Origin: Succinatimonas hippei YIT 12066
GTDB lineage: Bacteria > Pseudomonadota > Gammaproteobacteria > Enterobacterales > Succinivibrionaceae
Assembly (NCBI RefSeq): GCF_000188195.1
Contig: NZ_GL830944.1
Span: 1-49,129 of the forward strand
Length of the DNA: 49,129 bases
Direction: 5' to 3'
The first letter of the stretch is position 1. Each line of letters opens with the position of its first letter. The position numbers and the translations under genes were made by a program. The notes under the pieces are model-generated. The model did no database searches. It was not told the DNA's origin and saw only the letters and a program-made list of their open reading frames with translations. Shown piece by piece: positions 20,333 to 32,624 of this stretch.

Positions 20333-21142
20333 ATGCAAGCTGATTTACAGCAAATTGCCGCTAAATTACGCGGCTTGGCATTGGAAGCTATATTTGCCGG
20401 CGGATCAGGACATCCGGGCGGCTCTTTGTCTTTAGGCGAAATTATGGCGGCTTTATATTTTGAGGCTGCAAATATTAATGAAAAAGATCCTAAAGATCCT
20501 AAGCGTGATCGCGTTGTTTTAAGTAAAGGTCATGCCTGTCCGATTTTGTACGCGGCTTTATGCCTTAAGGGCTTTATCACCAAAGAGCAGTTGCTGTCGC
20601 TTCGTCATACAGACAGTTTCCTGCAGGGACATCCCGATATGAAAGGAACTCCCGGCGTTGATATGTCAACCGGATCTTTAGGTCAGGGCATTTCCGCAGC
20701 CTGCGGTATTGCGATGGGCGCTAAGCTTAAAAAAGAAGATTTTCATGTCTATGCCATATTGGGTGACGGAGAACTTGACGAGGGACAGGTCTGGGAAGCC
20801 TTGATGTTTGCCGCCCACTATAAGCTTGATAACTTGACCGTAATCGTTGATCACAACGGCTTGCAAATTGATGGTCCTAACAGTGAGGTTATGGATCTTG
20901 CCAATCTGAAAGCGCGTTTTGATGCTTTTGGTTTAAATACAATTGAAATTGACGGCAATAATCTTAATGAGGTAAGGCAATCTCTTGCTCTTGCTCGTGA
21001 AGTAAAAGGTAAACCTACTCTTATCCTTGCCAATACCGTAAAGGGTAAAGGCGTAAGTTTCATGGAAAATCAGGTAGGTTGGCACGGTAAGGCACCGAGC
21101 AGAGAAGATTTAGACAAGGCATTGGCAGAGTTGGGAGTTTAA
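20333..21142 (+). CDS. Transketolase, N-terminal (ThDP-binding) subunit
   Basis: A 269-residue N-terminal half of a split transketolase. It holds the thiamine-diphosphate/Mg site GDGELDEGQVWEA with the later asparagine-containing loop VDHNGLQIDG, and the substrate-side GSGHPGGSLS, SKGHACPILY and TGSLGQGIS. CGGAG precedes the ATG. The other half follows after 6 nt. The pair would transfer a two-carbon ketol unit. Split forms are common in catabolic clusters (for instance apulose-4-phosphate transketolase), so this is likely a pathway-specific enzyme under the upstream LacI-type regulator, not the general pentose-phosphate enzyme (inference). Confidence 0.93.
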   Translation: MQADLQQIAAKLRGLALEAIFAGGSGHPGGSLSLGEIMAALYFEAANINEKDPKDPKRDRVVLSKGHACPILYAALCLKGFITKEQLLSLRHTDSFLQGHPDMKGTPGVDMSTGSLGQGISAACGIAMGAKLKKEDFHVYAILGDGELDEGQVWEALMFAAHYKLDNLTVIVDHNGLQIDGPNSEVMDLANLKARFDAFGLNTIEIDGNNLNEVRQSLALAREVKGKPTLILANTVKGKGVSFMENQVGWHGKAPSREDLDKALAELGV

Positions 21143-21148
21143 TAAGAA

Positions 21149-22063
21149 ATGAAAGCAAATCGACAAGCATTCGGTGAGGCTTTGGTAGAGCTGTACAAAT
21201 CAAAGCCCAATATCGTCTCCCTTGACGCTGATTTGGCTGCAGCCACTTACAGTGCTGTCTTCAAGAAAGAGCATCCTGAGGCTTTTATCGACTGCGGTAT
21301 TGCCGAGCAGAATATGATGACTGTGGCGGCAGGTCTTTCTACTGTCGGGCTTATCCCTTTTGTCAGCACTTTTGCCGTTTTTGCAAGCCTGCGTGCCGGC
21401 GAGCAATTTCGCAACAGTATTTGTTATCCGCATCTTAATGTCAAAGTGGTAGGAACTCATGCCGGCATCGAATGCGGCGCAGATGGCGCCACCCATCAGG
21501 CACTTGAGGATATTGCTTTGATGCGTACAATCCCGGGGACCGTTGTTTTGGCTCCGGCTGACGCTTATGCCACTCGTGCTCTTGTTTTTGCAATGGCTGA
21601 CCATGTCGGTCCTTGCTATATGCGTGTAGGCCGTGACAAGGTAGAGGAAATTTATGACGCTGGAACTAAATTTACAATCGGCGGATCGCATTGTCTGCGT
21701 AAAGGAAATAAAGCTGCGATTTTAGCGGCTGGCGACAGAGTGCAAAGCGCCCTTGAGGCAGCAGATATTCTTGAAAAAGAAGGTATTAAGGTAAGCGTAT
21801 ACGATATGTACTCTATTAAGCCTTTAGATGAAAATGCCGTTAAGGAAGCTGCTGAATGCGGATTAATCGTGACGGTTGAAGATCATCAGAAAGTTGGCGG
21901 ATTAGGCAGTGCAGTTTGTGAGTGCGTATGCCGTAACAAGCCGTGCAAAGTCGTAACCATGGGCATGGAGAGTTTCGGACGCTCTGGGCCTTCTTCAGAA
22001 CTATTCAAACTTTACGGTTTGGATGGTGCATCAATTGCCGCTATTGTTAAATCAAATCTTTAA
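21149..22063 (+). CDS. Transketolase, C-terminal (pyrimidine-binding) subunit
   Basis: A 304-residue partner covering the pyrimidine-binding and C-terminal domains of transketolase. IDCGIAEQNMMTVAAGLS carries the glutamate that activates ThDP; GTHAGIECGADGATHQALEDIA and the C-terminal VTVEDHQKVGGLGSAV are family hallmarks. It cannot function without the 269-residue N-terminal subunit encoded just upstream. The gene is followed by dctP after about 35 nt, placing the enzyme in one unit with a TRAP importer; no kinase or other catabolic enzyme is encoded here. Confidence 0.93.
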   Translation: MKANRQAFGEALVELYKSKPNIVSLDADLAAATYSAVFKKEHPEAFIDCGIAEQNMMTVAAGLSTVGLIPFVSTFAVFASLRAGEQFRNSICYPHLNVKVVGTHAGIECGADGATHQALEDIALMRTIPGTVVLAPADAYATRALVFAMADHVGPCYMRVGRDKVEEIYDAGTKFTIGGSHCLRKGNKAAILAAGDRVQSALEAADILEKEGIKVSVYDMYSIKPLDENAVKEAAECGLIVTVEDHQKVGGLGSAVCECVCRNKPCKVVTMGMESFGRSGPSSELFKLYGLDGASIAAIVKSNL

Positions 22064-22098
22064 TTTAGGACAGGTTTTACCAAAGTAAGGAGATGAAC

Positions 22099-23094
22099 AT
22101 GAAAGTTAAAACTATGTTGGGTGCAGCTTTAGCTGCCGCTTTAATGGCTAATGCCGCAGCCTCTTATGCAGATGACGTCATTAATATGCGTTTTGCCAAC
22201 GCTACCAACCAGGCGGCAAAAGACGCAGCTGTAGCAATGATTGACGTGGTACAGAAAGAATCTGGCGGTACCATTCAAATCAAACATTTCCCTGACAATA
22301 TGTTAGGTGATGATCGTGTTGCTATCGAGTCCACCATTATGGGTGATATCGATATCGTTTTGGCACAGCCTTCAACTTTAACTTCATTTATTCCTGACGT
22401 TTATTTGTGGGACGCTCCGTTCCTGTTTGCTACCGCTGAAGATGCAATCCGCTGCTTTAACAGCGATATAGGCAAGACCATTAACGGTAAAGTAGAAAGC
22501 CGCAATCTTCATTATTTCACCATGGTAGGCAACGGCTTCCGTCACTATACCAACAATAAAGTTGCAGTAAAGGTTCCTGCTGACGTCGCAGGTGCTAAGG
22601 TTCGTGTACAGGAATCTGAAATTCAGATGGCTCAGTGGAAAGCCTGGGGTGCAAATCCTACCCCGATGGCCTTTGCTGAAGTATTGCCGGCTTTGCAGCA
22701 GGGCACTATCGATGCTCAGGAGAACCCTCTTGCCATTATCGATGCCAACAAGCTTTATGAAGTTCAGCACTATATTTCATTGACCGGTCATCAGTACAGC
22801 CCGCAGATCCTGCTTATGAATAAAGCACGCTGGGAGTCTTTGTCCGATGCTCAGAAGAAGGCCATGAACGACGGTGTAGAAACCTTCATTAAAGTTCAGC
22901 GCGAGCGTTCTATTGAACTTGACGCTCTTTCCGAGAAGAAGTTCAAGGACGCAGGCTGCGAAATCATTACTCTTACCGATGCTGAGCGCCAGCAGTGGAT
23001 TGACAAAGCCAAAGAGGGCGGTGTTTATGACTTGGTCAAGAGCATGATGGATACTCCTGAGTACGTTGACCGCGTCTTGAATAAAGACTACTAA
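22099..23094 (+). CDS. dctP: TRAP transporter substrate-binding protein, DctP family
   Basis: Periplasmic solute-binding subunit. Residues 1-24 are a typical signal peptide ending ASYADD. The binding core shows GFRHYTNNK, GAKVRVQES with the arginine that usually clamps a substrate carboxylate, and GANPTPMAFAEVLPALQQGTIDAQENP. The second of two in-frame ATGs (22099) is chosen since AAGGAG lies 6 nt before it; the first ATG touches the ribosome site. Substrate is likely a sugar acid or other carboxylate, given the family and the linked transketolase, but cannot be named. Confidence 0.93.
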   Translation: MKVKTMLGAALAAALMANAAASYADDVINMRFANATNQAAKDAAVAMIDVVQKESGGTIQIKHFPDNMLGDDRVAIESTIMGDIDIVLAQPSTLTSFIPDVYLWDAPFLFATAEDAIRCFNSDIGKTINGKVESRNLHYFTMVGNGFRHYTNNKVAVKVPADVAGAKVRVQESEIQMAQWKAWGANPTPMAFAEVLPALQQGTIDAQENPLAIIDANKLYEVQHYISLTGHQYSPQILLMNKARWESLSDAQKKAMNDGVETFIKVQRERSIELDALSEKKFKDAGCEIITLTDAERQQWIDKAKEGGVYDLVKSMMDTPEYVDRVLNKDY

Positions 23095-23105
23095 TCCCTC
23101 TATTT

Positions 23106-23129
23106 AAGCCTCCACGTTCGTGGAGGCTT
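23106..23129 (+). terminator. Stable stem-loop between dctP and dctQ
   Basis: AAGCCTCCAC and GTGGAGGCTT form a 10-bp stem with loop GTTC, 11 nt after dctP. Only three U residues follow. Its position suggests partial termination or 3'-end protection, keeping the binding protein more abundant than the membrane subunits, as often seen in transport operons. Confidence 0.6.
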
Positions 23130-23168
23130 TAACTTAGCCTCAGTCTGTTCCCTAAATTCTGCGGTTTT

Positions 23169-23681
23169 ATGATGAAAATATTAGATTTTTTAAATAATAA
23201 ATTAGAGATGTGGATTTGCGTGATCCTGATGTCGGCTATCGGTATCGTACTCAGCTTCCAGGTTATCATGCGCTATATTTTCCATTCATCTTTAGGCTGG
23301 TCAGAAGAACTTGCACGTTATATGTTCGTGTGGCTTGTTTTTATCGGCATCAGCTATGGTGCCAAAGTCATGCGTCATATTAAGATTGATGCCTTTTTAT
23401 TTTTGTTCCCTAAAATTCTTCGTCCGTACATAGTTATCTTAGGTGACGTTCTTTCATTGGTTTTTGCTATAGCCGTAATTTATTTAGGTTGGGGCATGGT
23501 TCAGACTCAGCTTATGATTGGACAGTTGTCACCTGCAATGCGTATTCCTATGTGGATTGTGTATTTAGCTCCGATTGTAGGCTTCGGATTGGCATCCATT
23601 CGCCTGATTCAGGGAATTATTTACCATATTAAGCATTTAAAAGACGGCGAAGGTGATCCTAATGCCGAGATTGAGCAGTAG
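23169..23681 (+). CDS. dctQ: TRAP transporter small permease, DctQ family
   Basis: A 170-residue protein with four hydrophobic helices and the DctQ hallmark VIMRYIFHSSLGWSEELARY followed by VWLVFIGISYGAK. It forms the membrane complex with the DctM subunit encoded 11 nt downstream. A second ATG directly after the first (23172) is an equally possible start. Separated from dctP by a stem-loop. Confidence 0.93.
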   Translation: MMKILDFLNNKLEMWICVILMSAIGIVLSFQVIMRYIFHSSLGWSEELARYMFVWLVFIGISYGAKVMRHIKIDAFLFLFPKILRPYIVILGDVLSLVFAIAVIYLGWGMVQTQLMIGQLSPAMRIPMWIVYLAPIVGFGLASIRLIQGIIYHIKHLKDGEGDPNAEIEQ

Positions 23682-23692
23682 GGAGTAGCAAG

Positions 23693-24973
23693 ATGGCATC
23701 AACAGTTCTTTTAGTTTCTCTTGCGATCTTTTTGATCTTAAATATGCCGGTCGGTCTTGCAATCGGCTTGTCCACTCTTGCGGCTTTACTTACCGGAGAG
23801 ACATTAAGCCTTAATGCTCTTTCTCAGCAGATGGTAATTAGCTGCGATTCTTTCCCGATTCTGGCTGTTCCTTTGTTTATTTTGGCTGGCGACTTGATGG
23901 GCGCCGGCGGCGTATCCCGCAGAATTTTAAATGTCTGTAACGTCTTTTTCGGACGCATCACCGGCGGTCTTGCAATCGTTACCGTTTTAGTCTGCATGTT
24001 CTTTGCCGCAGTTTCAGGCTCCGGTCCTGCAACCGTGGCTGCCGTAGGATCCATGGTTATTCCTACCATGATCGAGCTTGGTTATAAGCGCTCTTTCGTT
24101 TTGGCCTTGGTCGCGACAGCCGGAACTATCGGCGTAATTATTCCGCCGTCAATTCCGATGGTGCTTTACGGTGTTTCTACCGGAACTTCCGTTACCTCTT
24201 TGTTTATGGGCGGATTCCTTCCCGGTTTATTAATCGGCGGCGCTTTGATGCTTTACTCTTATATTTACTGCAAAGTAAAAGGATATAAGGGACACAGTGA
24301 GCCGTTCTCCGGTAAAAAAGCGTGGGATGCTGTATGGGAAGCCAAATGGGCTTTAATTAACCCGATCATCATTTTGGGCGGTATTTACGCCGGTATTTTC
24401 ACCCCGACCGAAGCTGCCGCAATCGCCGCTTTGTATGCATTTATTTGCGGTGCCTTCATTCACCGCGAGCTTGATGCAAAAGGTTTATTTAAAGCAATTG
24501 CCACTTCATGCTGCACGACCGGTACCGTTATGGTGATTTTGGCATGCGCGACCGGTTTTTCCAAGATTTTAACTGTAGAGCAGGTTCCGCAGCTTGTAAC
24601 TCAAACATTGCTTGAGATCACCGACAGCAAGATTGTCTTGTTAATTTTGATTAACATCATGCTGCTTATCGTCGGATGCTTCATGGATCAGACCCCTGCA
24701 ATTTTGATTTTGGCTCCGATCCTTTTACCGGTTGCCGTTTCTTTAGGTCTAGATCCGGTTCACTTCGGTCTTATCATGGTTGCAAACCTTGCCATCGGCT
24801 TTATTACTCCGCCTTTGGGCATGGCGCTCTTCGTGGCGGCTCGTATTTCCAATACGAAGCTTGAAGTCGTGTTAAAAGGCATCGTTCCGTTTATCTTCCT
24901 GATTATCGGTACTTTGACTTTGATTACTTTCATTCCGCAGATCACTATGTTCCTGCCGAATTTGATGAAGTAA
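23693..24973 (+). CDS. dctM: TRAP transporter large permease, DctM family
   Basis: A 426-residue membrane protein with about 12 hydrophobic segments, the ion-coupled translocation subunit. Family signatures are PVGLAIGLSTLAAL, FPILAVPLFILAGDLMGAGG, VSGSGPATVAAVGSMVIPTM, GTIGVIIPPSIPMVLYG, IFTPTEAAAIAALYA and ITPPLGMALFVAAR. GGGAG lies 7 nt before the ATG. It ends the transketolase-dctPQM operon; two near-identical 15-nt direct repeats and a terminator follow. Confidence 0.95.
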   Translation: MASTVLLVSLAIFLILNMPVGLAIGLSTLAALLTGETLSLNALSQQMVISCDSFPILAVPLFILAGDLMGAGGVSRRILNVCNVFFGRITGGLAIVTVLVCMFFAAVSGSGPATVAAVGSMVIPTMIELGYKRSFVLALVATAGTIGVIIPPSIPMVLYGVSTGTSVTSLFMGGFLPGLLIGGALMLYSYIYCKVKGYKGHSEPFSGKKAWDAVWEAKWALINPIIILGGIYAGIFTPTEAAAIAALYAFICGAFIHRELDAKGLFKAIATSCCTTGTVMVILACATGFSKILTVEQVPQLVTQTLLEITDSKIVLLILINIMLLIVGCFMDQTPAILILAPILLPVAVSLGLDPVHFGLIMVANLAIGFITPPLGMALFVAARISNTKLEVVLKGIVPFIFLIIGTLTLITFIPQITMFLPNLMK

Positions 24974-25854: not shown

Positions 25855-26664
25855 TTATTTGCTTTGCCAGCCCGGCAAACGTAAATCAATCTGTCCCGTT
25901 TCCGTAGGATTTAACGATCCGAAACCGAAAGCTTCGAGCAAGGTTTGCGCTTCATCATTTTCTCTTAAAAAGCGGGTAAAGGCTAAAGCGTCATTGCGTT
26001 TTGTCGATTCATCGATAATTAAAGTGTAGTAGAAAATATCAGGATAATATTCGCGCGGGACTATCCAGTATGATCCGTTTACCATTTTGGTTTTGGAGCT
26101 TATTAAGGGTAGTGTGATAAATCCTGCTTCCACATTTTGGTTTGCAACCATGGAGTGGACCTGGTATTCGTGTTCGGGGTAGAAGATCTTGTCTTTAAGA
26201 TAGTCTGTCGGAAATCCTTTGTTAGCGACGATTTGCTTTGCCGCAAAGCCGACTGGAGTAAGTCTCGGATCAGGAATTGCCAGGGACTTTAGTTTTTTAG
26301 TATAGATTGCAGAGATATTACCGTTAAATAAGCGCGGATTAGCGGACCACAAAATAAGTTTAGCACGGGTAAAAGGAATAAATGAGGCAGGAGAGGTCTT
26401 ATTTAAACGAATAAGACTTATCGGTAGTCTTTCATCAGGACTGATTATGACATCGCACTTTAACTTGTTATTGATAATTCCGGTATAGATATTAGATGCG
26501 GTAGTGTAATGAGCATCAAATTCAACCGGAATTTTGGGAGTAAGAGCTTCAAGAGCGCTGTACATTTGCGTGGTAGCACAAACCTGCAGCTTTTGTTCTG
26601 CAGCTTGAGTGCAAAAAGATACAGATACTATGGCAGCTAAGGCAATAAATTTTTTAAACAACAT
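25855..26664 (-). CDS. ModA-like periplasmic substrate-binding protein
   Basis: A 269-residue protein with a signal peptide (MLFKKFIALAAIVSVSFCTQA) and a type II periplasmic-binding fold resembling molybdate-binding ModA: LQVCATTQMYSALEAL, CDVIISPDERLP, LAIPDPRLTPVGFAAKQIV and FTRFLRENDEAQTLLEAFGF. By eye, the first oxyanion-binding serine of ModA is replaced (TTQMY where ModA has AASLT), so the ligand may not be molybdate. I chose the ATG at 26664, 7 nt after the stop of the fused transporter gene; the frame is open further upstream but inside that gene. No ABC permease or ATPase is nearby, which is unusual. Confidence 0.72.
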   Translation of the reverse strand: MLFKKFIALAAIVSVSFCTQAAEQKLQVCATTQMYSALEALTPKIPVEFDAHYTTASNIYTGIINNKLKCDVIISPDERLPISLIRLNKTSPASFIPFTRAKLILWSANPRLFNGNISAIYTKKLKSLAIPDPRLTPVGFAAKQIVANKGFPTDYLKDKIFYPEHEYQVHSMVANQNVEAGFITLPLISSKTKMVNGSYWIVPREYYPDIFYYTLIIDESTKRNDALAFTRFLRENDEAQTLLEAFGFGSLNPTETGQIDLRLPGWQSK

Positions 26665-26671
26665 AAAATAA

Positions 26672-28516
26672 TTAATCAAAATGTTGAGCATAACGGGCAA
26701 TTCGCGTAACCACTTCGCGTGCGGTTCCGGCGTGGCGAAGCGAATCGGCAAACCCTTGCTCGTTTAAAACCAAAGACAAACGGCCTAAGAGATTTAAATG
26801 TGTTTGTCCGTCATCAGGACTGGCGATTAAGAAGATAAGATCACATTTTTTACCGTCAAAAGATCCTAAATCAAGAGGTTTTTCCAAAACGGCAATGGCG
26901 ATCGCAGGTCGTTTCACGCATTCACCGCGGGCGTGGGGAATCGCAATTCCTTCAGCAATGCCGCAAGGCGTGACTTTTAGTCTTCTATTAAGCTCGGATC
27001 TGAATTCTGAAATAGAAGAAATAATGCCGCTGCGGGCAAGACATGAGACAAGCGGACTTAAAACTTCCTCTAAGGTTTCTCCCTTAAGTTTTAGCAGCAC
27101 ATTACTTTCGTCAATTGCATAACGGATAAGCTTTTGAGTATCGTGAATCATCCCGTCTGACGTCCTGAGCTTCTCAAGGGTAGACAACATGGATTTAAAT
27201 AGAATGCCGTTTAGCTTGTAGTAGCGGCTGTAGATCCACAGAGAAAGCAAAATAAGCAGACAGACTATGACAAGAGCAAGCCGGAAACTGAATTCCTGAT
27301 GAACGAAAGTTATTTCACGGGGAATATAAGCTGCGGCAGATATCGAAAGACCTGACATGAAAAGGGCAATGCCGGTACCTAATTTGGCGGAGAACGTTTG
27401 CAGTGAAAAAATTAAGGCCTCAGATCGAATGCCGTTTTTAAATTCACCGTAATCCACGCAGTCGGCAAGCATGGAAGTCGTAAGTCCAATCATAAGAGCC
27501 ATGCCGCAGTTGGCAAAGCAGAAACTTATGCAGAGGATTATGGGGTTTCCGGTTGTGAGCGACAGGAAGATCATGGAAATAAAGCCGCATAGCATCAATA
27601 TGCCGGATATATAAAATGCGGCTTTGCGGGAAATGAGGCCGATTATTTTAGGCAGCAGAATGTAAGTTAAAAATTGAATGACCGCTCCGCCTGACATAAT
27701 GATAGTGAAGTGCTTGGCGGTAATTACATGTTCTTGAAGGAAGTAGAAAATAAGAGAACTATTAACGATACCGATAGCGATTTGCTGCAAAACCATAATA
27801 GAGATAGTGGCAAGCAGTTGATCGTTTTTGCTTATAAGTTCAAAGGCTTTACTTATTGAGAATTTAGCGTATTTAAATTTTTGGCGGCGCGTTTTAAGGG
27901 TAAAGCACATTACAAGCTGGGTTATTAAGAAAAATAATGCACAGCCTGCAGCCAGCATGAAAAAGCCTTCAGATAAGTCATGCTGTGAATTAAACGTAAG
28001 TTTCCTGATTAAAAACAGTCCGAAAATAAGGATGAATTGTCCGCCGACTACTGTCATGGCGCGGGGGATCGCGGTCATGATCAGGCGATCTTTACCTACC
28101 GTACCGAAATTAGGAATTAACGACCAAAACGGGATGTCCATCAGCGAATAGGCGATGATGGTAAGAAAATAAAAGCCAAGTCCGTATAAAGCAAGATCGG
28201 ATCCTTGAAGATTAGGTTTATAAAACAGACATGTGACAGTCACTGCCGTTAACAGACTGCCGACGATGATCCAAGGCTTGAATTTACTAAAGCGTGTAGT
28301 GGTGTTATCTATCGCATATCCTAAAAAAGGATCGAGAAATGCGTTGGCAATTTTGCCTATTAATAAAATAAAACCGATAAATGCTGCCGACATACCGTAA
28401 AAATCGGTAAGGTACAGCATCAAATAAGCGCCTATGAACCAATAAATGATGTCTTTGCTCATGGCACCTAAACTGAAAGTGATTTTTTCGCTTAAAGATA
28501 TATGGGATTCTTTCAT
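26672..28516 (-). CDS. GPH-family sugar transporter fused to a PTS EIIA (fructose/Ntr-type) domain
   Basis: A 614-residue fusion. Residues 1 to about 450 are a 12-helix glycoside-pentoside-hexuronide:cation symporter (EKITFSLGAMSKDIIYW, DPFLGYAIDNTTTRFSKFKPWI, SMLADCVDYGEFKNGIRSEA). Residues about 470-614 are an EIIA domain of the fructose/mannitol/PtsN class, with the phosphorylation site GIAIPHAR (H528) and the second conserved histidine GQTHLNLL (H573). Known GPH-EIIA fusions such as LacS carry a glucose-type EIIA, so this pairing is uncommon. The EIIA probably controls transport through PTS phosphorylation (inference). The ModA-like gene follows after 7 nt. Confidence 0.85.
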   Translation of the reverse strand: MKESHISLSEKITFSLGAMSKDIIYWFIGAYLMLYLTDFYGMSAAFIGFILLIGKIANAFLDPFLGYAIDNTTTRFSKFKPWIIVGSLLTAVTVTCLFYKPNLQGSDLALYGLGFYFLTIIAYSLMDIPFWSLIPNFGTVGKDRLIMTAIPRAMTVVGGQFILIFGLFLIRKLTFNSQHDLSEGFFMLAAGCALFFLITQLVMCFTLKTRRQKFKYAKFSISKAFELISKNDQLLATISIMVLQQIAIGIVNSSLIFYFLQEHVITAKHFTIIMSGGAVIQFLTYILLPKIIGLISRKAAFYISGILMLCGFISMIFLSLTTGNPIILCISFCFANCGMALMIGLTTSMLADCVDYGEFKNGIRSEALIFSLQTFSAKLGTGIALFMSGLSISAAAYIPREITFVHQEFSFRLALVIVCLLILLSLWIYSRYYKLNGILFKSMLSTLEKLRTSDGMIHDTQKLIRYAIDESNVLLKLKGETLEEVLSPLVSCLARSGIISSISEFRSELNRRLKVTPCGIAEGIAIPHARGECVKRPAIAIAVLEKPLDLGSFDGKKCDLIFLIASPDDGQTHLNLLGRLSLVLNEQGFADSLRHAGTAREVVTRIARYAQHFD

Positions 28517-28601: not shown

Positions 28602-30431
28602 TCACTCAACTGTGACGGACTTCGCTAAATTGCGAGGTTGATCAACGTCCGTACCGTTAATTAGTGCTACATGGTACGCAAGCAGTTGGAGCGGTATGGT
28701 GTAAATCACGCTTTGCAGATATTGTCCTGACACTTTAAGTTTGATGACGCGGGTGGTAGCGTCTTCTTTGATGGCAGTTTTATCTGACGTGAAGATATAT
28801 AAAATACCGCCGCGGGCTTTTACCTCTTCAATGTTTGACTTAAGTTTGCCGATAAGCTCGTTGTCAGGAGCAACTACGACAACCGGCATTGAAGCGTCGA
28901 TAAGAGCAATCGGTCCGTGCTTTAATTCGCCTGCAGCATAGCCTTCTGCGTGGATGTAGCTTATTTCTTTAAGCTTTAACGCGCCTTCAAGAGCTATAGG
29001 GTACATTTCTCCGCGGCCCAAGAAGAGGCAGTGATGTTTGCCGGCAAATTCTTCGGCAAGTTTCTCAACGGTTGCGGCAGTCTTAAGTGCGCTGCTGATT
29101 TCATCAGGGATCTTCTTAATCTCTTTAATGATTTCTGCAGCCTGCTCTTTAGTTAAAGTTCCTTTTACGCGTCCGATGCGGATAGCAAGAAGAATAAGTG
29201 CAATAAGCTGAGTAGTAAAAGCCTTGGTTGAGGCAACGCCGATTTCTGCTCCGGCTCTTGTCAAAAATACGTAGTCGGATTCTCTTACAAGTGAGGATCC
29301 CGGAACGTTGCAGATAGCAAGTGAACCTTTATATCCTGAATTCTTGGCTTTTCTTAAAGCGGCAAGAGTATCGGCGGTTTCTCCTGATTGGGATAATGTT
29401 ACTAAAAGAGAGTTTTGCAAAGTCACGCTGTTGCGGTAACGGAATTCTGAAGCGATTTCCACTTCGGTATGGACTTTAGCGAGATTCTCAAGGAAGAATC
29501 TTCCGACAAGTCCTGCATGATATGAGGTTCCGCAAGCGACAATCTGAATGTTGTCGATATCTTTAAAGCTGTCTTCATCGGTACCGAGGAATGCCTCGAA
29601 ACTGACGTTATCTTCTTCAATGCGGCGCTCAAACGTATCGGCAACGGCTCGAGGCTGTTCAAAAATTTCTTTTTGCATGAAGTGGCGGTACGGGCCTTTT
29701 GATACCGAGTAGACGTCAAGCTCGCTTTCTTTGACGGGTTTTGTGACGGAATTTAAGTCCTTATCGTAAATCTTAAGTTCTTTGCGCTTTAAAACGGCGA
29801 TTTCATCATCGTCAAGATAGATAAAGCGCTGCGTGACCGGCAGCAACGCTAATACGTCCGAAGCGACGAAGTTTTCACCGAAGCCTAATCCGATAACGAT
29901 AGGAGAGCCTTTCCGGGCGGTATATAAAGTATCGGGCTCCTGCTTATTGATAAGTGCAATGCCATAGGTTCCTTCGACATCGTTTAAAGCAAGACGCAAT
30001 GCCTTTTTGGTGTCGGATTCGGTTTTAGCGTAATAAGAAATCAAATGAGCTAAGACTTCGGTGTCGGTTTGAGATTTAAACTCAAAACCTTCTTTTTCAA
30101 GTTTGGCTTTAATTTCTTTAAAGTTTTCAATAATGCCGTTATGCACCAGAGCAAAGTTACCGCTTATATGCGGATGGGCGTTTTCAACCGAAGGACGGCC
30201 GTGGGTTGCCCATCTGGTATGAGCTATGCCTAAGGTTCCTGCAAAAGACTCTTTGCCTACAGCTTCTTTTAATGACGATACTTTGCCAGTGACGCGGACA
30301 CGCTTGAAATCATTATCATGAATGACGCAAAGCCCTGCCGAGTCATATCCGCGGTATTCAAGACGGGATAGACCTTCAAGCAAAATATCTACGATATCTC
30401 TTTGAGCTATGGCTGCAACAATTCCGCACAT
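28602..30431 (-). CDS. glmS: Glutamine--fructose-6-phosphate aminotransferase (isomerizing)
   Basis: Makes glucosamine-6-phosphate from fructose-6-phosphate and glutamine. The class II glutaminase domain starts with the nucleophile C2 (MCGIVAAIA) and contains LEYRGYDSAG, HTRWATHG and HNGIIENF. Two SIS domains follow (CGTSYHAGL, SQSGETADT, STKAFTTQ, HAEGYAAGELKHGP) and the C-terminal tail DQPRNLAKSVTVE is typical. 609 aa. It lies 18 nt downstream of glmU, so the two UDP-GlcNAc enzymes are cotranscribed. No glmS ribozyme or leader is present between them. Confidence 0.97.
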   Translation of the reverse strand: MCGIVAAIAQRDIVDILLEGLSRLEYRGYDSAGLCVIHDNDFKRVRVTGKVSSLKEAVGKESFAGTLGIAHTRWATHGRPSVENAHPHISGNFALVHNGIIENFKEIKAKLEKEGFEFKSQTDTEVLAHLISYYAKTESDTKKALRLALNDVEGTYGIALINKQEPDTLYTARKGSPIVIGLGFGENFVASDVLALLPVTQRFIYLDDDEIAVLKRKELKIYDKDLNSVTKPVKESELDVYSVSKGPYRHFMQKEIFEQPRAVADTFERRIEEDNVSFEAFLGTDEDSFKDIDNIQIVACGTSYHAGLVGRFFLENLAKVHTEVEIASEFRYRNSVTLQNSLLVTLSQSGETADTLAALRKAKNSGYKGSLAICNVPGSSLVRESDYVFLTRAGAEIGVASTKAFTTQLIALILLAIRIGRVKGTLTKEQAAEIIKEIKKIPDEISSALKTAATVEKLAEEFAGKHHCLFLGRGEMYPIALEGALKLKEISYIHAEGYAAGELKHGPIALIDASMPVVVVAPDNELIGKLKSNIEEVKARGGILYIFTSDKTAIKEDATTRVIKLKVSGQYLQSVIYTIPLQLLAYHVALINGTDVDQPRNLAKSVTVE

Positions 30432-30449: not shown

Positions 30450-31835
30450 TTATTTCTTGTTTTTGACAGGACGCTGGTAATTTTTAAAGTAAATAGGTCT
30501 TACGCGCGTAATGACCAAAGCTTTTTCGGGAACTTCCTTAGTTACGGTGGTTCCGGCGCCGATTGTGGCTCCTTTGCGCACGGTAACCGGTGCTACAAGC
30601 TGGGTGTCGGATCCGACGAACACATCATCCTCAATGGTGGTACGGTGCTTGTTGGCTCCGTCATAATTGCAGGTGATTGTTCCGGCACCGATATTGACGT
30701 CGGTCCCGATGTCGCTGTCACCTAAATAGCTTAAATGACCTGCTTTAGTTCCAAAACCTATATGAGAATTTTTTACCTCTACGAAATTGCCGACGTGTAC
30801 TTCGTCTTCAAGTACGTTGCCCGGGCGCAGTCTTGCAAAAGGTCCTATGGTTGTGTGACGCTTGAGCTCTGATTTTTCTATTACGGTATAAGGGGAAATA
30901 ATACTGTTATCGCCGATTGATACGTCTTTTAACACGCAGCCTGCACCGATGCTGACGTTGTTTCCCAGGGTTACGCTGCCTTCAATAATGACATTTATGT
31001 CGATGAAAACGTCTTTGCCGTGAATTAAAGTGCCGCGTAAGTCAAAACGTTTCGGGTCGGCAAGAGTGACGCCCTCTTCAAGCAGGGATTTTGCTGCTCG
31101 TTCCTGATAGAGTCTTTCGATAAAGCTAAGCTGGATCTTATTGTTAACGCCGCATAATACTGAAAAGTCAGGAGCTTTTACCGGATTTACCTCTTTACTG
31201 TCACGGCGAAGGAGTGCGACTAAATCGGTAAGATAATATTCACCTTGGGTATTCTCGTTATTAAGTTTTGGCAAATACTCATTAAAAACAGCGGCAGGGG
31301 CTGCCATCATGCCGGTATTTACTTCATTTATGAGTTTTTCTTGAGCATTTGCGTCTTTTTCTTCAACGATTTTTTCAATTTGCCCGTCGCTGTTTCTTAT
31401 GATGCGTCCGTATCCGAAAGGATTATCGGCGATAGCGGTAAGAAGACTCATGCCGTTTTTCGGACAAGCGTTAAGCAAAGCTTTGAGATCGTTTGTTGGC
31501 GTAAGCGGCGTATCTCCGTAAAGAACGATGACCATTGAATCTTTTTGCACATAAGGCATGGCGGTATTAACGGCATGCCCGGTACCTAATTGCTCTTTTT
31601 GCTCGACTATGTTTATTTTTGAGAAAATCTCTTTCGGTAAGGAGGTCAGAGACTGTCTTACAATTTCTCCGCCATGTCCTACTACAACATGGATTTTAAG
31701 CGGATCTAAAGTTAAAGAGGTGTCGATTACATGCCTAAGCATGCTTTTGCCGGCAACTTTATGTAAAACTTTAGGCAAGTCGGAATGCATGCGTTTGCCT
31801 TTGCCTGCTGAAAGAATAACGATTTCAAGGGACAT
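30450..31835 (-). CDS. glmU: Bifunctional UDP-GlcNAc pyrophosphorylase / GlcN-1-P acetyltransferase
   Basis: Catalyses the last two steps to UDP-N-acetylglucosamine. The N-terminal uridyltransferase has LSAGKGKRMHSDLPKVLH and VLYGDTPLT; the C-terminal left-handed beta helix has repeated hexapeptides (VTLGNNVSIGAGCVLKDVSI) and the acetyltransferase site (FARLRPGN, EVKNSHIGFGTKAGHLSYLG, GAGTITCNYDG). 461 aa, normal. Starts 12 nt after the lgt stop and is followed by glmS. Confidence 0.97.
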   Translation of the reverse strand: MSLEIVILSAGKGKRMHSDLPKVLHKVAGKSMLRHVIDTSLTLDPLKIHVVVGHGGEIVRQSLTSLPKEIFSKINIVEQKEQLGTGHAVNTAMPYVQKDSMVIVLYGDTPLTPTNDLKALLNACPKNGMSLLTAIADNPFGYGRIIRNSDGQIEKIVEEKDANAQEKLINEVNTGMMAAPAAVFNEYLPKLNNENTQGEYYLTDLVALLRRDSKEVNPVKAPDFSVLCGVNNKIQLSFIERLYQERAAKSLLEEGVTLADPKRFDLRGTLIHGKDVFIDINVIIEGSVTLGNNVSIGAGCVLKDVSIGDNSIISPYTVIEKSELKRHTTIGPFARLRPGNVLEDEVHVGNFVEVKNSHIGFGTKAGHLSYLGDSDIGTDVNIGAGTITCNYDGANKHRTTIEDDVFVGSDTQLVAPVTVRKGATIGAGTTVTKEVPEKALVITRVRPIYFKNYQRPVKNKK

Positions 31836-31847
31836 GTTGTTACCTTC

Positions 31848-32624
31848 TTAATTTAGACGCTTGTGTCGTGAATAGATAATAAGGATTATTCCTAAAATAA
31901 TAAACGGAATACTTAGAAGCTGCCCGACATTTAGGGCGATTCCGGTGGTGTAATCCGCTTGCTCAACTTTAAATGGCTCTATGATAAAGCGGGCAGAGAA
32001 TATTAATATGAATAAAAACCCGAGGATGAAACCCGGTCCGCGCTTTTTAACATAAAAATATGCAAGAGTCAGAATTATAAAGATTATAAAGTAGGCAAAA
32101 GCTTCAAAAAGCTGTGCAGGATAGCGCGGCATAGTGTCACCGATGCGGGCAAATACGATGCCTAAGGGGCTGTCGGTGTACTTGCCTAAAATTTCCGAGT
32201 TCATGAAGTTGCCGAGTCGAATGAAAGTGCTGACGAGGGCAACGGGAATGCACAGCATGTCGGCGATGGTTAAAAAACGGTAATTGCAACTCTTGGTAAA
32301 AAGGTATATGGCTAAAAGAACTCCCAAAGTTCCGCCGTGACTTGCAAGACCGCCGTGCCAGATTTTTAAAATCTCAAGAGGATGGGATAAGTAAAACTGC
32401 GGCTCATAAATAAGGCAGTGACCTAAACGTGCACCGATTATCGTGCCGATGAAAAGAAAAGTTAAAAGCTTATCTAAATCTTCAGTCTTATACCCTGCTC
32501 TTTTGAACAGAAACTGCATGATGAAATAACCGATAATAAAGCCCGATGCAAAAAATAATCCGTAGTAACGGATCACAACGGGACCTATGGAAAAAGCAAT
32601 CGGATCGGCATTCCAGACTAACAT
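31848..32624 (-). CDS. lgt: Prolipoprotein diacylglyceryl transferase Lgt
   Basis: Inner-membrane enzyme adding diacylglycerol to the lipobox cysteine of prelipoproteins. About seven helices. Motifs: IRYYGLFFASGF, GARLGHCLIYEP, WHGGLASHGGTLG, the signature arginine region RLGNFMNSE, and PRYPAQLFEA. 258 aa, a little shorter than E. coli Lgt (291). First gene of lgt-glmU-glmS, a link between lipoprotein maturation and amino-sugar supply; in E. coli lgt pairs with thyA instead. Confidence 0.95.
   Translation of the reverse strand: MLVWNADPIAFSIGPVVIRYYGLFFASGFIIGYFIMQFLFKRAGYKTEDLDKLLTFLFIGTIIGARLGHCLIYEPQFYLSHPLEILKIWHGGLASHGGTLGVLLAIYLFTKSCNYRFLTIADMLCIPVALVSTFIRLGNFMNSEILGKYTDSPLGIVFARIGDTMPRYPAQLFEAFAYFIIFIILTLAYFYVKKRGPGFILGFLFILIFSARFIIEPFKVEQADYTTGIALNVGQLLSIPFIILGIILIIYSRHKRLN

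Follow-up and report, generated by a model that had tools for sequence, protein, structure and literature searches.

A GPH sugar carrier fused to a fructose-type EIIA domain forms two sister lineages in the Succinivibrionaceae

In Succinatimonas hippei YIT 12066, a MelB-like sugar carrier of the GPH family and a fructose-type EIIA domain are encoded as one protein. This is the known GPH-EIIA principle with another type of EIIA, and the finding is real. In the samples taken, the combination of a GPH carrier with a PF00359-type EIIA is confined to one family, the Succinivibrionaceae, where it exists as two lineages, A and B. We tentatively favour the view that the fusion is a PTS-switched sugar-binding membrane protein, which would follow the LacS principle with the other EIIA, and that lineage B may be drifting from symporter to sensor.

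The window, i.e. the whole stretch of 49,129 nucleotides that was analysed, holds the fusion gene at 26672..28516 on the minus strand, with an ATG start and 614 codons for amino acids (Pfam, NCBIfam, AlphaFold2, Foldseek). These coordinates are those of an earlier, sequence-only reading; the strand has to be specified as minus, the plus-strand frame being full of stops. The GPH/MFS_2 domain (27209..28477, minus strand, residues 14-436, delimited by Pfam and the site alignment) is matched by PF13347 with 188.5 bits (E 2e-55, cut-off 27), and the 279.8 bits obtained with TIGR00792, above its cut-off of 231.35, place the protein in the GPH family. It is followed by a linker (27116..27208, minus strand, residues 437-467; pLDDT below 50 at residues 454-460) and by the EIIA domain (26696..27115, minus strand, residues 468-607), which PF00359 matches with 95.1 bits (E 5e-27, cut-off 27). 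This score and the conserved phospho-histidine assign the domain to that EIIA family. The predicted phosphorylation site, His528 (26933..26935, minus strand), is kept in 34 out of 34 fusion proteins, and the second active-site histidine, His573 (26798..26800, minus strand), in 32 of them, with a tyrosine in L056 and L090. With the NCBIfam models, the C-terminal part scores 94.7 bits for the fructose-specific EIIA (TIGR00848), near but below the cut-off of 103.5, and 44.1 bits for PtsN (TIGR01419, cut-off 138.7): the fused EIIA is nearer to the fructose type than to PtsN, and reaches the cut-off of neither model.

The AlphaFold2 model of the fusion (mean pLDDT 84.2) has 12 long helices and a mixed alpha/beta domain starting around residue 463. 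Its top Foldseek matches are MelB structures (7l16, TM 0.90 by target length, 27% identity), and no EIIA structure stands among the best 50 matches listed, so that the assignment of the EIIA fold rests on sequence. The nearest solved chains by sequence are MelB (1.6e-52) and PtsN 2a0j (1.6e-8). An assembly join or a frameshift is ruled out by the same open architecture in 17 further genomes of the family. Most of the sequence-only reading thus holds: both domains in one frame, a single genuine gene, a transporter of 12 helices (with a MelB-type fold), both histidines at the positions claimed, and an EIIA whose fold is the fructose/Ntr one and not that of glucose-type EIIA.

Among known systems, LacS of streptococci and lactobacilli has the same layout, a GPH carrier with a C-terminal EIIA. 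The EIIA of LacS is, however, of the glucose type, PF00358, a family absent from the Pfam matches of the fusion, whose own EIIA is PF00359. FruA (fructose PTS EIIA) provides the best-scoring EIIA model for the fusion and shares the two active-site histidines, but the fusion stays under the cut-off of that model, lacks the EIIB that an EIIA-EIIB protein of the source genome does have, and is joined to a secondary carrier. PtsN (EIIA-Ntr), a regulator of K+ transport and of GlmS, belongs to the same Pfam family and gave the 2a0j match; if the fusion regulated something and passed no phosphate on to a sugar, it would resemble PtsN in this too. The PtsN match is nevertheless the weaker one (44.1 vs 94.7 bits for the fructose type), and the EIIA of the fusion is tethered to the membrane. 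As for regulation, transport by LacS is controlled by HPr-dependent phosphorylation, according to PMC10710835.

The distribution of the architecture was followed by a protein search in 59 genomes: the source genome, 34 others of Succinivibrionaceae and 24 same-order genomes of other families. Together with locus inspection, it identified 24 full fusions, which come from 18 of the 35 Succinivibrionaceae genomes and from 7 of 14 genus groups, and no two-domain match was listed in the 24 genomes outside the family. Besides the source genome, there was none among the matches listed for 274 Gammaproteobacteria, nor among those for 398 Pseudomonadota, the best 3-4 candidates per genome being scored in both (the distribution samples overlap). 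Phyla beyond Pseudomonadota were sampled by a GTDB r220 scan alone, in which 31 of the best 80 loci (of 225 confirmed) span both domains, L099 among them being aligned only from residue 176; one more locus, L081, is interrupted at the edge of its contig. The 32 loci comprise 29 assigned to Succinivibrionaceae or to genera placed there (Avisuccinivibrio by name); L084 and L099 are each given as Aeromonadales bacterium, and L077 as gamma proteobacterium. The EIIA domain is absent from nine inspected GTDB matches outside the family, including the furthest-running ones, L097 and L104. An earlier GTDB scan with a single protein as query found no relative. That the architecture is a common one is ruled out by the genome samples, which hold no two-domain match outside Succinivibrionaceae among the matches listed. 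No published account of it was found in the open-licence literature; Willson 2019, reportedly a survey of MFS fusions, may list it.

In a membrane-domain tree of 46 rows, built without L022, lineages A and B form supported sister groups, and the two sister lineages stay when nearer unfused carriers are added (54 rows, L022 included). SH-aLRT supports in the 46- and 54-row trees are 99 for B, 98 and 99 for A together with two nested unfused proteins, and 99 for A and B joined, several lineage B rows being long branches with unusual composition in both carrier trees. The source-genome fusion falls in lineage B; regarding it as a lone case was therefore incomplete. Anaerobiospirillum succiniciproducens DSM 6400 also has a gene of lineage B (L093). 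Lineage A was found in six genomes of the 59-genome search, and all six also hold lineage B. In an EIIA tree (without L029, L032 and L033), lineage B is supported at 99/97 and lineage A less strongly, at 84/91. As this tree unites all fusions into one clade in just 21% of bootstraps, a single fusion event rests on the membrane-domain trees. Ten of the 31 fusions from the GTDB scan were added to the alignment and 20 others were already represented; L066, whose final 200 residues are the same as those of L039, was not added. Taken with the distribution, the carrier trees would fit a fusion that arose in an ancestor within Succinivibrionaceae, the gene splitting later into lineages A and B.

Some members depart from the standard layout. 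L085 and L087, from Anaerobiospirillum sp., are unfused carriers nested in lineage A, with a serine at the D19 equivalent; they are apparent losses of the EIIA inside that lineage. Five lineage B proteins of Anaerobiospirillum (L049, L051-L054) have inserts of about 90-320 residues in the central carrier loop, of low complexity by eye, and L048 and L050 have long linkers ahead of the EIIA. No Pfam domain was found in these inserts and linkers at E 0.001.

The two halves of the protein are conserved in opposite order in the two lineages. Mean identity within lineage A is 74.0% for the carrier and 53.6% for the EIIA, the EIIA being higher in 0 of 36 pairs, whereas within lineage B it is 26.3% for the carrier and 49.1% for the EIIA, the latter being higher in all 300 pairs (pairwise comparisons are not independent of each other). 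The six genomes with both lineages (15 pairs) give 73.0/50.8 for carrier and EIIA in A and 25.1/52.7 in B, and comparing inside these genomes controls for divergence time. All 25 lineage B proteins have one full-length open frame, and their EIIA, His528 included, is conserved across strongly diverged genera. The better conservation of the EIIA in lineage B suggests a carrier that is becoming a switch or a sensor. Relaxed selection could also account for the drift of the carrier.

We next consider the residues of the carrier's two sites, positions being those of MelB residues named in PMC8329300. The comparison set was made of 20 unfused carriers, 12 rows of one alignment and 8 carriers of the later tree. 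The cation-site residues D55, D59 and T121 were complemented with N58, a further cation-site position of MelB; since just 12 of the 20 carriers in this set have it, little can be concluded where it is missing. D55, D59 and T121 are all kept in 20/20 unfused carriers and in 9/9 lineage A proteins. In lineage B (n = 25), D55 is found in 11 proteins, D59 in 10 and T121 in 6. The D59 position is a glutamate in seven of the B proteins, which is a mild change, and nine have none of the four cation-site residues. The eight polar residues of the sugar site (K18, D19, Y120, D124, W128, R149, T373, K377) are complete in 9/9 lineage A proteins, which all have a leucine at position W342, and in 9/9 chosen MelB-like unfused carriers (a set that omits L085, L087, L059 and L022). 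Among the 25 lineage B proteins, D19 is present in 16, D124 in 22, R149 in 17 and K377 in 15. Most sugar-site positions also differ in six unfused carriers from other GPH subgroups (L059, L023, L150-L153), so that a lineage B protein with an altered sugar site may have changed its substrate and not lost its function. The seven Anaerobiospirillum proteins of lineage B retain none of the four cation-site and 3 to 5 of the eight sugar-site residues, and L056 retains none of either.

The source-genome fusion may be compared directly with MelB, the Na+/melibiose symporter (GPH, 2.A.2), which is inhibited in trans by EIIA-Glc. It shares the MelB fold in its membrane domain and all eight polar sugar-site residues, but differs in having its own EIIA attached, isoleucine and alanine at the W342 and V376 equivalents, and a cation site reduced to one residue of four: D62 (equivalent to D59) is kept, and D55, N58 and T121 are replaced by Asn, Leu and Ser. 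Judging by these residues, this protein is likely at an early or intermediate stage of the change, sugar binding being probable, and it is unlikely to be Na+-coupled in the MelB manner.

The proposal of an uptake under the control of a different PTS signal suits lineage A, whose six loci are those of lactose or galactose use: galK adjoins the fusion in three (in one of them with galT and galE), and a divergent lacZ is present in three. For lineage B it is uncertain whether there is uptake to control, given the eroded cation site and an EIIA better conserved than its carrier. It is possible, though on balance unlikely, that both lineages are ordinary H+ sugar symporters gated in cis by the PTS as LacS is, B having changed its substrate and its ion. 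The source-genome fusion speaks for it with its complete set of polar sugar-site residues and D62, and so do the MelB fold, the sugar-site differences seen anyway between GPH subgroups, and two precedents from the literature, the LacS regulation (PMC10710835) and Asp59 as the protonation site favoured by the MelB authors (PMC8329300). It would leave unexplained, however, why 300/300 lineage B pairs show lower conservation in the carrier than in the EIIA, and why 9 of 25 B proteins lack all four cation-site residues when D55, D59 and T121 are present in 20/20 unfused carriers. Nor was any sugar hydrolase or galactose gene seen directly beside the source-genome fusion.

The genes that do surround the source-genome fusion are of another kind. 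Names in the neighbourhood were given by eye from ORF starts, except for Pfam, NCBIfam or blastp assignments. Upstream on the same minus strand are glmS (28602..30431, 85 nt from the fusion; Pfam, NCBIfam), glmU (30450..31835, named from its nucleotidyl transferase and hexapeptide Pfam domains) and lgt (31848..32624, PF01790). Downstream, also on the minus strand, a ModA-like periplasmic binding protein is encoded at 25855..26664, with a likely ATG, picked by eye, 7 nt past the fusion stop. No minus-strand terminator was found in either gap around the fusion by a consensus scan, whose matches were at chance level overall. From this layout, glmS, the fusion and the binding-protein gene are likely to share one transcript. 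Elsewhere in the window, a TRAP set (DctP, DctQ, DctM) follows the N-terminal half of a transketolase on the plus strand (20333-24973), and an ORF resembling the other transketolase half precedes the TRAP set.

This arrangement recurs in lineage B. The ModA-like gene lies downstream of the fusion in 18 genomes out of 18. With each ORF counted from its earliest possible start, the two genes overlap or are no more than 34 nt apart in 13 of these. Upstream, lgt-glmU is present in 15 of the 18, and glmS is directly upstream in nine. L042 has no adjoining glm gene, L043 stops at a contig edge, and L050 has glmS only; in L054, a 145-aa ORF without Pfam match separates the fusion from the binding-protein gene. 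In seven other genomes of the family (L172-L178), a cluster composed of glmU, in some cases glmS, an AP endonuclease-like gene and a binding-protein gene is followed by an HPr-like gene. The HPr-like genes of these clusters have a GLHVRP or GLHIRP motif, PF00381 being confirmed for 4/7, and the one of G008 is the only HPr found in that genome. The binding proteins of these clusters are related to the neighbour of the fusion (120-148 bits; frame interrupted in G005). In G009, a binding-protein gene comes after glmU, with neither fusion nor HPr-like gene. Overall, this locus was inspected in 26 family genomes, and in 25 of them the binding protein is adjoined by a PTS-type protein.

A membrane-anchored regulator of amino-sugar synthesis could be imagined on this basis, in which the lineage B EIIA would act on GlmS (or GlmU) and the carrier would serve as anchor or ligand sensor. 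The glmU/glmS neighbourhood and the HPr-like gene found in place of the fusion at the same glmU-(glmS)-binding protein locus in seven genomes would both agree with it. In Salmonella, moreover, GlmS is bound and inhibited by EIIA-Ntr, which belongs to the same Pfam family, and phosphorylation of EIIA-Ntr strengthens the binding (PMC5024086; a 2026 review, PMC13104625, agrees). Neighbourhood is however no proof of interaction, 9 of the 18 genomes do not have glmS directly upstream, and the fused EIIA is closer to the fructose type than to PtsN, so that we regard such a regulator, taken as the whole role of the protein, as improbable.

The ModA-like protein reaches 80.1 bits with TIGR01256 (modA), above the cut-off of 62.5; its fold is that of molybdate-binding ModA (7t4z, TM 0.89-0.90 by target length; profile match 1atg, 1.3e-21). 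It differs from ModA in two invariant cysteines, and Gln33 and Glu166 are also invariant. At the positions that we take to be the oxyanion ligands of ModA, residues look replaced in the alignment. No modB- or modC-like gene was noticed by eye in lineage B loci, and the protein is thus without a noticed ABC partner. In two other genomes, by contrast, the gene of a ModA homologue adjoins one for a TOBE-domain ABC ATPase. One could therefore think of a binding-protein-dependent secondary carrier, to which the ModA-like protein would deliver its ligand, as its gene is downstream in all 18 lineage B genomes and mostly close or overlapping. Yet in seven family genomes the binding-protein locus has an HPr-like gene but lacks a carrier, and the binding protein of G009 adjoins neither, which makes delivery to the carrier very improbable. 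Finally, that lineage B descends from a duplicate of a lactose carrier, is now in decay and has been retained by chance would agree with the loss of cation- and sugar-site residues in many members but is hardly credible in view of 25/25 full-length frames and a conserved EIIA, His528 and locus order.

The source genome has several possible partners for a PTS-switched protein. It encodes three EI-type proteins (558, 764 and 555 aa), two HPr-type proteins, two EIIA-Glc (PF00358) domains located away from the fusion, a 633-aa protein with both EIIA and EIIB, and a PtsN-like EIIA that stands alone. Given this inventory, the phosphate for the fused EIIA could come from the sugar or from the Ntr branch. 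Among the family genomes tested, EI is present in 26/26 and HPr in 22/24. In G017, which has a lineage B fusion, HPr was not found (genome 96% complete); this either counts against HPr as a universal donor or reflects a gap in the genome.

Other PTS genes of these genomes call for a few remarks. On G000:C44 (L165), an EIIA-Glc gene adjoins a gene for an EI-like protein of about 554 aa, whereas that genome has its remaining EI genes on C8 and C22 and its HPr genes on C109 and C28. In four genomes (G012:C75, G022:C58, G027:C226, G024:C89), a stand-alone EIIA-Glc gene is directly beside an unfused GPH carrier, the two matches overlapping in G024; such neighbour pairs are the split counterpart of LacS. 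By eye, L058 (G000:C105) shows lptB, then hpf, ptsN and rapZ, with no rpoN between lptB and hpf. The rpoN loss suspected from this ptsN locus is ruled out, the gene being on another contig.

Returning to the PTS-switched sugar-binding protein that we tentatively favour, its working might be as follows. An HPr-type protein would hand phosphate to His528 of the fused EIIA, and this phosphorylation would set the state of the MelB-type carrier in cis, by analogy with LacS. Lineage A would have remained a cation/galactoside symporter at its lactose and galactose loci. Lineage B would have settled between glmU/glmS and the binding-protein gene; its cation site, and often its sugar site too, would have eroded while its EIIA stayed under selection. 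The source-genome fusion would then be a PTS-switched carrier, proton-coupled or uncoupled, en route to a sensor (transceptor), and may work with the binding protein, tied to amino-sugar or envelope supply. A second output in lineage B, the EIIA acting on GlmS, is plausible from synteny and homology, as an analogue of EIIA-Ntr in Salmonella. A bolder version, which we think rather doubtful, is that lineage B proteins are PTS-wired transceptors that have lost pumping and would report a periplasmic or membrane ligand, with the aid of the ModA-like protein, via the EIIA to GlmS or GlmU, the EIIA protein being replaced by an HPr-like protein in sister genera.

If the PTS-switched reading is confirmed, these bacteria would offer a further case of this kind of control, in which the EIIA belongs to another family and six genomes hold an intact lineage together with an eroding one. 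This pairing makes the transition from carrier to sensor directly testable. A link between the PTS and the supply of cell-wall sugars would also follow for this bacterial family of the rumen and gut.
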